Positions 247-6,151 of a DNA stretch of 22,643 bases are shown here, piece by piece; position 1 is the stretch's first letter; each line of letters begins with the position of its first letter. The DNA comes from a virus. Made by a program: the position numbers and the translations under genes. The notes beneath the pieces were generated by a model, which worked only from the letters and a program-made list of their open reading frames with translations, did no database searches and was not told the DNA's origin. The stretch lies in IMG/VR virus record IMGVR_UViG_3300006875_000182, positions 1-22,643 of that record; one strand, 5' to 3'.

Positions 247-566
247 GAGACCACCATCTCTAGAGGAGCGCCATTAGCGCCAGTCACCTCCAGGCGGTCA
301 TTCTCCCGCCACTGTGCCCTGGTCTTTAGCCAGAAGATAGCCGCTGTGGTGTTTCCGTTCTTGGCTTGTTGATAAAGAGTCTGCGCCACAGAAGCATTGG
401 CCTCAATCCGGCCCTCGTCCAGTTCTTTCCTGTAGTGCTTGCGAAGGGTGTCGTCGGTAATATCCAGCTTGGCAGCAATGTCCTCATACCGAGTACCTAC
501 TGCACTCAGCATTTTGACAACCTTACGATTCTCTTCGGTTGGCTTATGAGGGTTACCACTACCCAT
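225..566 (-). CDS. terS: Terminase small subunit (HTH DNA-binding)
   Basis: This 113-residue protein probably recognises phage DNA for packaging and hands it to the large terminase. Residues about 27-48 (YEDIAAKLDITDDTLRKHY) read as a helix-turn-helix. Residues 56-85 (ANASVAQTLYQQAKNG, then AAIFWLKTR) match the helical oligomerisation region typical of small terminases of this type. The ATG at 566 has GGAG seven bases upstream. It overlaps the end of the methyltransferase gene by 8 nt, and its own 3' end overlaps terL by 22 nt. Identification rests on the HTH, the size and adjacency to TerL. Confidence 0.85.
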   Translation of the reverse strand: MGSGNPHKPTEENRKVVKMLSAVGTRYEDIAAKLDITDDTLRKHYRKELDEGRIEANASVAQTLYQQAKNGNTTAAIFWLKTRAQWRENDRLEVTGANGAPLEMVVSWANEKS

Positions 567-4769: not shown

Positions 4770-4933
4770 TTTTTGTCCTTCTTCTCTTTGTACCAGGTCG
4801 TGCCCCACTGGTGGAATGAGCACTTAGGGCTTTCGATTGAGACAGTCCAGCGGTTTTGGCAGTTCGGATAGGAACACATCAGACGCTTGTAGTCGTCCAT
4901 CTCTTGTGGAACATCTGCTTTCTTGAATGTCAT
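4766..4933 (-). CDS. Small Cys/His protein, zinc-finger-like (55 aa)
   Basis: CSYPNC (about 19-24) and PKCSFH (about 39-44) could form a C2-CH zinc site. The ends are basic. The ATG at 4933 overlaps the stop of the replication gene (ATGA), and the stop overlaps the next GTG (GTGA). Being coupled to the replication protein suggests an accessory role in replication, but no function is known to me. Confidence 0.65.
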   Translation of the reverse strand: MTFKKADVPQEMDDYKRLMCSYPNCQNRWTVSIESPKCSFHQWGTTWYKEKKDKK

Positions 4934-5685
4934 TTTTGATACTTCCCGTCGATGATCTTGGCGAAATTGTTGGCGTTGACGATCCAGGCCAGGTCTGGCC
5001 TCCACACCCTACCGTTTGACTCAAACCCATCTCTGAGCTTGGTATCGGCGGCGATGTAGGCAAAGAACGAGTCCCACCACTTCAGCCCGTCCTGCTGGGT
5101 CTTGTAGCCTTCCGGCGAGTAGCTGCTGGGCTTCCCGGCCTGAATCCACCGCTGACGCATATGCGTTGACCGTGTTCCTTCCCAGATGCGCGGATACGGC
5201 AGATGAGGAAGGTGCTTTCGGTAAAGACTCAAAAGCTCCTGCTGCGGACAAGGCGGGAACCCCGTTCCCGACAAAGAAGCGTTAGCTTCTTTTACTTGGG
5301 TAGTGGGTAATGGGTTATGGGTTATGGGAGCATTGCCTTCGGATTGCGTTGGCAATGCGTTCGCATCCTGTTGCTTGTCCCACCTAGCCATGGCGCTGTT
5401 CCTAGCCTTCTCAGACTTGTCGTTCACAGCGTCAATCTCGCGCATCACTCGCGGAGAAATCCAACCATCTTCTGTGCGAACGAAGAACTCTCGCAGAACG
5501 GACGCAATGCATTCGCTATGCGTTCGCATCCTAATCAGACGGGCAATCTCGTCTTGTTCTAGTGGAAGAGGGCGCTCGTGGAGGTAACACCAATCGAGAA
5601 GTCGGCGATATGCCAAGTCCTCAAACTCATCAAGGTGTCCAGTGTGGGACTGGTAATCCTTGATGTTGAACTGATAGTAATGCAT
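4930..5685 (-). CDS. DUF1376-type phage replication protein
   Basis: This 251-residue protein starts with a DUF1376 (YdaU-like) domain (about 1-95: HYYQFNIKDYQSHTGHLDEF, then LAYRRLLDWCYLHERPLP). A low-complexity linker (about 104-150) and a Trp-rich C-terminal domain (about 151-251: LKWWDSFFAYI and WRPDLAWIVNANNFAKII) follow. Family members stand where lambda O or P18-type initiators stand and probably open the origin or load helicase. The ATG at 5685 was chosen because AAGGA lies six bases upstream and the domain begins there; the longer in-frame extension to 5796 lacks a ribosome binding site. The linker-coding DNA holds unusual repeats. Confidence 0.8.
   Translation of the reverse strand: MHYYQFNIKDYQSHTGHLDEFEDLAYRRLLDWCYLHERPLPLEQDEIARLIRMRTHSECIASVLREFFVRTEDGWISPRVMREIDAVNDKSEKARNSAMARWDKQQDANALPTQSEGNAPITHNPLPTTQVKEANASLSGTGFPPCPQQELLSLYRKHLPHLPYPRIWEGTRSTHMRQRWIQAGKPSSYSPEGYKTQQDGLKWWDSFFAYIAADTKLRDGFESNGRVWRPDLAWIVNANNFAKIIDGKYQK
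5298..5328 (+). repeat. 7-bp tandem array with five GGG tracts (G-quadruplex motif)
   Basis: Four tandem heptamers (TAGTGGG, TAATGGG, TTATGGG, TTATGGG at 5301-5328) follow a further GGG at 5298-5300. The plus strand thus has five GGG tracts separated by 4-nt loops, which meets the usual G-quadruplex rule. It lies in the linker-coding part of the replication gene, on the strand opposite its message. Confidence 0.8.
5355..5369 (+). repeat. 15-bp repeat copy 1 (iteron-like)
   Basis: ATGCGTTCGCATCCT, containing the inverted repeat ATGCG-TT-CGCAT. An identical copy is at 5518-5532, and the core CGTTCGCA also occurs inverted at 5475-5482. All lie in the replication gene, as lambda origin iterons lie in gene O. 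Confidence 0.6.
5518..5532 (+). repeat. 15-bp repeat copy 2 (iteron-like)
   Basis: Exact second copy of ATGCGTTCGCATCCT, 163 bp from the first. It is preceded at 5504-5517 by a related GCAATGCATTCGCT, which mirrors the GCAATGCGTTCGC surrounding copy 1. Confidence 0.6.
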
Positions 5686-5786
5686 CAGTGATCCTTGGGG
5701 GGACAGCCTCAGGGTGAGAATTCCGAGGCGGGCCAACCCATTACGGGCTATTTCGGGCCTGAAGCCGTCCACCCAAGGACACTGAT
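5684..5786 (-). promoter_or_regulatory. Long inverted repeat covering the RBS and start of the replication gene
   Basis: The arms at 5684-5704 and 5767-5786 can pair over 19 bp: 7 bp, a one-base bulge, 8 bp, one mismatch and 4 bp. The loop is 62 nt. In the minus-strand transcript the arm nearest the gene contains the AAGGA ribosome binding site and most of the ATG of the DUF1376 gene, so the fold would hide both. It could control translation. A DNA-level role such as operator or origin structure is the alternative. Confidence 0.6.
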
Positions 5787-5823
5787 CCAGGCCCACCTTA
5801 TGCGCTTCTCACGGCGCGTTCTC

Positions 5824-5853
5824 ACTCTACATCAATTGCAAGTCGTTGTGCAA
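5824..5853 (-). promoter_or_regulatory. Candidate promoter for replication gene
   Basis: On the minus strand TTGCAC (5853-5848), an 18-bp spacer and TAGAGT (5829-5824) give a moderate sigma70-like match. It overlaps the end of the small exported-protein gene and would start a leader of about 130 nt before the DUF1376 gene. The 5686-5831 gap holds no convincing gene. Confidence 0.3.
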
Positions 5854-5993
5854 GTCCTGAACTGGCCCTCTCCGTAGCAGCAGGTGGTGCATACGATCAC
5901 CTTGCCGTTCAGGATGTAGGAATGTGTGCTGCAGGCCGCATGAGCGTTAGCACCAAGCAGCATCAGAGCCGCGGCGATAGCAAGTTTCTTCAT
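5832..5993 (-). CDS. Small exported Cys-rich protein (53 aa)
   Basis: MKKLAIAAALMLLGANAHA is a clear signal peptide (Lys-rich start, hydrophobic core, AHA cleavage motif at about 17-19). It leaves a mature part of about 34 residues with six cysteines, including CTTCC and CTTTC. It is probably exported to the periplasm and disulfide-bonded. AGGAG precedes the ATG at 5993 by about five bases, and the start overlaps the Cro-like stop (ATGA), so it is made with the early regulator. I recall similar small secreted proteins in phages of Betaproteobacteria but no function. Superinfection exclusion or an effect on the host envelope is speculation. Confidence 0.75.
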   Translation of the reverse strand: MKKLAIAAALMLLGANAHAACSTHSYILNGKVIVCTTCCYGEGQFRTCTTTCN

Positions 5994-6151
5994 TTCTGCT
6001 CCTCAAACCACTCGGGACGAAGGGTCTTCAGTTGCCACATCCGAGCCTGGGGCACTGTCTTCCATTGATAAATCGCAGGCCGAGTGATGCCCAGCAACTT
6101 CGCCAGTGCCGTCACTCCCCCCGCTTTTCGAGCCAGTTCCTGCGGTGTCAT
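5990..6151 (-). CDS. Cro-like HTH regulator
   Basis: This 53-residue protein has a helix-turn-helix across VTALAKLLGITRPAIYQWKT (13-32) followed by RMWQLKTLRPEWF. This matches the P22 Cro-type family: small dimeric repressors that act on the divergent early promoters. The ATG at 6151 has AAAGGA five bases upstream; longer in-frame starts up to 6229 lack a site. It is the first leftward gene beside the 6152-6360 control region. No opposing CI-like repressor is present in the window. Confidence 0.85.
   Translation of the reverse strand: MTPQELARKAGGVTALAKLLGITRPAIYQWKTVPQARMWQLKTLRPEWFEEQK

Follow-up and report, generated by a model that had tools for sequence, protein, structure and literature searches.

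Gene Content and Layout of the Locus

The window (the whole 22,643-nucleotide stretch of viral DNA that was analyzed, IMG/VR record IMGVR_UViG_3300006875_000182) carries on its minus strand a replication-initiator-like gene whose 251-amino acid product matched the DUF1376 domain in Pfam (PF07120, E = 1.7e-20). In PHROGs, the protein matched phrog_6451, primosomal protein (5e-29), and phrog_345, replication initiation O-like (5.6e-11). Because the proteins of relatives begin with MHYYQF or MHFYQF at the equivalent ATG, the ATG at 5685-5683 was taken to be the right start. Upstream on the same strand are a gene for a Cro-like helix-turn-helix protein (5990-6151; P22_Cro, E = 3.3e-11) and, between it and the leader described below, a gene for a small 53-amino acid protein (5832-5993) with a signal-peptide-like start and many cysteines. 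This order of early genes around the initiator resembles a lambda-like early operon. Among relatives, the cysteine-rich small protein was present in L083, L091, and L130 and absent in L003. Iteron-like repeats (ATTGCGTTGGCA, AATGCGTTCGCA, AATGCATTCGCT, and TATGCGTTCGCA) were seen inside the initiator gene at 5340-5369 and 5503-5532, as two pairs with 11-nt spacing; relatives had 0 to 4 such repeats. The origin of lambda likewise lies inside a gene, gene O.

The features upstream of the initiator are listed in Table 1. The first-pass annotation held that this leader region is noncoding, and we agree, because relatives show indels of 1-2 nt in it and because, in L202, L212, and L213, the upstream frame is open for just 24 nt. 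In the window the initiator frame contains no stop as far upstream as a GTG at 5796, but an N-terminal extension was ruled out by the indels and nearby in-frame stops of relatives.

Table 1. Coordinates of the initiator gene, the leader RNA, and the predicted pairing segments in the window.
Feature	Position	Strand	Remarks
DUF1376 replication-initiator-like gene	4930..5685	(-)	251 aa; ATG 5685-5683
Conserved leader RNA (antisense domain)	5714..5817	(-)	104 nt; alone, cloverleaf with MFE -42.7 kcal/mol
Putative -35 box	5848..5853	(-)	TTGCAC; TTGC at equal distance from the RNA in 16 of the 16 listed leaders
Putative -10 box	5824..5829	(-)	TAGAGT; TAAGAT, TATGAT, or TAGGAT in relatives; spacer 18
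Closing stem P1a, 5' strand	5806..5812	(-)	GUGAGAA; pairs with 5714-5720 (UUCUCAC)
Closing stem P1a, 3' strand	5714..5720	(-)	UUCUCAC; from covariation alignment
Stem P1b, 5' strand	5790..5798	(-)	AGGUGGGCC; pairs with 5726-5734
Stem P1b, 3' strand	5726..5734	(-)	GGCCCGCCU; from covariation alignment
Hairpin H1	5767..5780	(-)	GUCC-UUGGGU-GGAC; 95% of cells paired
Hairpin H2	5756..5766	(-)	GGCU-UCA-GGCC; overlaps b'; invariant, so outside the reach of covariation
Hairpin H3	5735..5749	(-)	AGCCC-GUAAU-GGGUU; two pairs changed on both sides
Antisense segment a'	5773..5786	(-)	Pairs with SD/start-codon region 5684-5698
Antisense segment b'	5758..5770	(-)	GGACGGCUUCAGG; pairs with 5701-5713
Target segment b	5701..5713	(-)	CCUGAGGCUGUCC; partner of b'
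Target segment a	5684..5698	(-)	CCCAAGGAUCACUGA(U); SD AAGGA at 5692-5696; reaches into the start codon

A Long Helix Covers the Ribosome-Binding Site of the Initiator

On the minus strand, 5758-5786 pairs with 5684-5713 over 27-28 base pairs that enclose a 44-nt loop. The helix has an outer block (a' with a) and an inner block of 13 bp (b' with b), and it covers the Shine-Dalgarno (SD) sequence AAGGA together with the A and U of the initiator ATG. A hairpin had been described here in the first-pass annotation, with arms at 5684-5704 and 5767-5786, 19 bp, and a 62-nt loop. Those arms do pair, and the gene-proximal one holds the SD and most of the ATG as claimed, but the helix is longer and its loop shorter than was described. 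There is no U-run after the hairpin, which rules out an intrinsic terminator of the upstream gene.

The minimum free energy (MFE) of 5640-5830 (minus strand) was -80.5 kcal/mol (z = -4.2), and none of 200 shuffled sequences was as stable. For 5670-5817 the MFE was -73.6 kcal/mol, compared to -50.9 ± 4.2 kcal/mol in shuffles (0 of 500 as stable), and this stability was matched by none of 1216 other 148-nt segments sampled from both strands. The arm-to-arm duplex had an energy of -50.0 kcal/mol. When all 133 starts with an SD in the window were compared as targets of the leader, that of the initiator was by far the best (-54.3 kcal/mol, with the next at -31.8), and there was no second strong target.

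Across the aligned versions of the element, the 27 pairs of the masking helix were paired in 97.8% of cells, 5 pairs were changed on both sides, and the covariation score was reached in 0 of 500 shuffles; shifting the register of the alignment abolished this support. Compensatory changes in both arms, the check proposed in the first-pass annotation, were thus found among relatives. These counts, and those for the second fold below, rest on 10 distinct aligned versions from related viruses, and some of the changes are shared by descent. All five of the changed pairs fall in a'. The b'/b sequence is invariant in all members except for one C-to-U change on the target side in L212, which keeps a G-U pair, and two G-U wobbles are conserved in it; this block varies too little for covariation to bear on its predicted pairing. 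G-U pairs of the masking helix were found at columns 54-117 and 57-114 in 10 of 10 rows, and at others in part of the rows.

Relatives with an altered a' (L202 and L212/L213) have a matching altered target. The a' segments of L202 and L212 paired with their own or each other's targets at -21.2 and -24.5 kcal/mol and more weakly with window-type targets, at -8.5 to -13.1 kcal/mol. Crossing L202 and L212/L213 with window-type targets weakened the duplex by 8-16 kcal/mol.

The Leader Has a Second, Mutually Exclusive Fold

The first-pass annotation described a hairpin that can hide the SD and start codon. Masking of the SD and start codon stands; the account was incomplete, since the distal arm is part of an independently conserved leader RNA with a cloverleaf fold of its own. 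That first reading is therefore partly supported, having omitted the leader's cloverleaf, the promoter-like sequence upstream of it, and the inner second helix. The cloverleaf is the MFE structure of the isolated leader in the window and in L203, and L212 shares its closing stems. In the alignment, 97.9% of its cells were paired, 5 pairs were changed on both sides, and 0 of 500 shuffles reached its score. The stability of the isolated cloverleaf is ordinary for its composition (z = -1.6 to -0.1), so that its support comes from covariation. In P1a, L203 and L209 have GUGGAAA/UUUCCAC, a change of two adjacent compensatory pairs that was probably one event. Compensation in P1b was seen as UG, CG, and UA at 23-93 and as CG, UG, and UA at 27-89. 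The loop of H1 contains the anti-SD (CCUUGGG).

The cloverleaf and the SD-masking helix use common bases and are mutually exclusive. In a series of MFE structures for the growing transcript, which is not a kinetic simulation, the cloverleaf was found at about 105-110 nt and the masking helix from about 125-135 nt, when the transcript had come to include the SD. A helix of GGGCCUG with CAGGCCC, the 3' strand of which never varies, appeared in short prefixes and is a possible third competitor in these predicted folds.

The aligned block is conserved from GCGCCGUGAGAAGCGCAUAAGG through the start codon. It starts where a TTGC-N17/18-TANNAT-like promoter would begin transcription, and we infer a promoter from this conservation in the aligned leaders, with a putative transcript start at about 5817-5819, at the onset of the block. 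The promoter-like boxes are kept although the upstream gene varies among contigs. A simple promoter scan of the window did not report the proposed promoter, which is weak by consensus. No terminator-like site was found between the leader and the start codon of the initiator; a released leader that acts as a separate antisense RNA is thus putative.

Relatives Carrying the Element

Pattern scans of IMG/VR and a DUF1376 search gathered 11 distinct versions of the element in about 25 IMG/VR contigs, all with the promoter-like boxes, the 104-nt leader, and the arm-target complementarity. A covariance model built from 10 versions found only these elements among 52 sources, matching no int-alpA leader and no P1 there, and it scored the minus-strand orientation far above the reverse. 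Two exact-pattern matches in genome_contigs, one in a tRNA region and one in a coding gene without the flanking motif, were judged to be chance and were rejected as occurrences in bacterial genomes. No tyrosine integrase, a sign of lysogeny, was found in 14 viral records, all of them fragments.

The leader and its target move as a unit before different initiators: between L203 and L209, identity is 99% in the leader but 59% in the initiator protein. In this pair the leader resembles a joint at which early modules have recombined. In L202 (element at 366-510, minus strand), the masked gene is a 72-amino acid open reading frame that is inserted after the leader and ahead of the DUF1376 gene. Just 5 nt separate its stop codon from the DUF1376 ATG, a spacing that suggests translational coupling of the two.

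The int-alpA RNA Occupies the Same Slot

The int-alpA RNA (RF02996) was detected at E ≤ 0.001 in 38 of 46 other DUF1376 records, with 19 above the Rfam cut-off. Its model matched neither the window nor any of four records of the window's type (L002, L201, L203, and L213). In most relatives among L004-L081, int-alpA lies directly before the DUF1376 initiator (e.g., L036 3910-3978, L047 3912-3978, and L080 3911-3979), and in loci read directly it ends about 25 nt before the initiator ATG. At L018, upstream of 4001, there is neither RNA; a perfect-looking terminator hairpin with a T-run stands just before the initiator.

Whole-leader duplex energies for int-alpA were blurred by long gapped duplexes, and a loop-only exact-match measure was used instead. 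The longest exact match of the int-alpA loop to its own downstream region averaged 6.26 nt, compared to 4.32 nt for permuted partners (0 of 20000 permutations; 27 leaders with distinct loops). Part of this matching involves a first site that lies some 20-31 nt ahead of the ATG; in some leaders there is a second one, close to the SD. Coevolution of the int-alpA loop with these sites ahead of the initiator start suggests an antisense function for this RNA. A literature search that did not cover the family's original paper found no description of int-alpA function, and one paper just lists the RNA; when isolate phages were searched by BLAST with the int-alpA consensus, there was no match.

Given this loop-target coevolution, one RNA family or the other fills the slot before the initiator, and the two would share their antisense logic. 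We regard it as plausible, leaning slightly toward doubt, that the phages of this group place their initiator under a leader antisense RNA and that two unrelated families, the cloverleaf RNA and int-alpA, fill the slot. If so, the timing or copy number of phage DNA replication would be controlled in a C4-like manner, and int-alpA, the occupant of the slot in most relatives, would gain a function.

Proposed Mechanism and Alternatives

The computations establish both folds, the compensation in each, their register to the SD and ATG, and a single strong target in the window. In the mechanism that we propose, a transcript from about 5818 would yield the 104-nt leader first, and the leader would fold on itself into the cloverleaf with the anti-SD in a hairpin loop. 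When the next 30 nt had been made, a' and b' would instead pair over 27-28 bases with the SD/start region, and translation of the initiator would be shut off. The leader would silence its own mRNA and, if cut or terminated off, could do so to other molecules of that mRNA; repression would then rise with genome copy number or guard against superinfection. We consider it fairly likely that, in this hairpin, a conserved phage leader RNA pairs as an antisense with its target and thereby controls translation of the DUF1376 initiator in the manner of C4 and IsrK. The pairing is expected to lower initiator translation, the leader may also act in trans on other copies, and it is probably a built-in antisense switch on the timing or amount of phage replication. 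Among the triggers named in the first-pass annotation, an antisense RNA gives the best fit, being the leader itself; for a ribosome moving through the distal arm, no conserved upstream frame is available.

The main rival is a folding timer that works only in cis, and the data do not separate it from the antisense reading. The leader would never be released; the cloverleaf would leave the SD open briefly before the masking helix stopped translation, giving a burst of initiator per transcript as in the MS2 maturation-gene leader. Such a timer would account for the presence in a single transcript of two conserved folds that exclude each other, for the order in which they appear along the growing RNA, and for the lack of a terminator after the leader, and an intramolecular helix of 27-28 bp should outcompete any trans copy. 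MS2 and aapA3 are precedents for transient control of the SD (PMC6733600). However, int-alpA in the same position has a U-run after its closing stem and short loop-target matches, both of which have the look of a small RNA of its own; the phage systems nearest to this layout, C4 and IsrK, act in trans; and the folding order was read from MFE structures of prefixes, not from kinetics. We regard a cis-only timer as possible but on the unlikely side.

An activation like that of IsrK, in which the read-through mRNA would be silent in cis and a short form of the leader would open the initiator in trans, is quite improbable. In wild-type IsrK, the leader-mRNA is nearly all in the silent fold, with about 30 nt of mid-IsrK paired, and short IsrK switches it on (PMC4825925). 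The full-length fold in the window is likewise strongly silent. However, the antisense segment here lies on the SD and start codon, where a trans copy would block, and IsrK pairing lies elsewhere; a terminator to generate the short form is also missing.

The remaining readings fit worse than a leader antisense RNA or a cis timer. The first-pass annotation named a DNA-level element, either an operator or a cruciform at a replication origin, as its main alternative. An origin structure could take the form of a long inverted repeat beside an initiator gene, and compensatory changes are expected for DNA inverted repeats too. In contrast, DNA has no need of the G-U pairs kept in the helix, the independent cloverleaf shows its conservation on the strand that is transcribed, which the covariance model favors over its reverse, the repeat is in fixed register to the SD and start codon, and the candidate iterons are instead inside the initiator gene. 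A DNA-level role is not needed and is very improbable. Least probable is an RNA thermometer or static down-tuning by a strong hairpin, for although the SD is buried in a very stable one, a duplex of about -50 kcal/mol would stay paired across the physiological temperature range, which also makes the earlier suggestion of temperature as a trigger unlikely, and static masking leaves the conserved, compensated, competing cloverleaf unexplained.

Comparison with Known Leader RNAs

Antisense RNAs that limit translation of an initiator are a classic means of plasmid copy-number control, and leader RNAs of the C4 type are known for phage antirepressors. With the C4 model (RF01695), the window gave no match between 4600 and 7000 at E up to 5, and L200, L202, and L206 gave none at E up to 3, whereas the positive control, P1, scored 68.8 bits; the c4-a1b1 model had no match in the window. 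Membership in C4, c4-a1b1, int-alpA, or IsrK was thus rejected in the Rfam searches, and weak Rfam matches to mir-2009 and RyhB were judged to be chance.

The C4 RNA of P1/P7 is a same-strand leader with antisense segments a' and b' complementary to the ribosome-binding region (PMC8198154, PMC5320573). The leader in the window is like it in several ways. Both lie just upstream of the target on the same strand and in a single transcript, both carry antisense segments whose complement is the ribosome-binding region of the gene that follows, and both have a compact fold in which a long closing stem encloses hairpins. However, three hairpins are predicted here and two in the C4 model, there is one long target here and two target copies (a1b1 and a2b2) for C4, and the target here is a DUF1376 replication-initiator-like protein rather than an antirepressor operon. 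Processing by RNase P from a longer transcript is a known feature of C4. The small open reading frame before the main gene in L202 is reminiscent of icd before ant in P1.

The int-alpA RNA is similar in being a stem-closed RNA directly before a DUF1376 initiator, with a loop complementary to sites before it, and differs in its sequence and in that its loop matches the target over shorter stretches (5-9 nt), in many cases with a further site close to the SD. IsrK of the Salmonella prophage Gifsy-1 shares its promoter with the downstream mRNA; in the silent fold, a leader segment of about 30 nt is paired in cis to coding sequence farther downstream, and in the active fold it forms a leader hairpin (PMC4825925). 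The computed folds and their covariation suggest the same alternation here, with a leader segment paired in cis in the silent fold and in a leader hairpin otherwise. IsrK, however, ends at a terminator of its own and activates an antirepressor-like operon in trans, whereas no terminator was found for the leader in the window, and the pairing of that leader lies directly on the SD and start codon. The maturation-gene leader of MS2 is of the cloverleaf type, with its SD exposed only while folding is incomplete. The likeness lies in the cloverleaf-type leader and in a possible transient exposure of the SD through competing folds; MS2 is, however, an RNA phage, and its gene and sequence are unrelated to the window.

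The Rfam non-matches, the single target, the lack of a detected terminator, and the different target gene keep the leader from being filed under C4, int-alpA, or IsrK. It would nonetheless work like C4 and IsrK. Here a leader of the C4/IsrK kind would control a phage replication initiator, and its RNA family is absent from Rfam. If true, this would be a simple way for phages to time or limit replication or to exclude superinfecting relatives.
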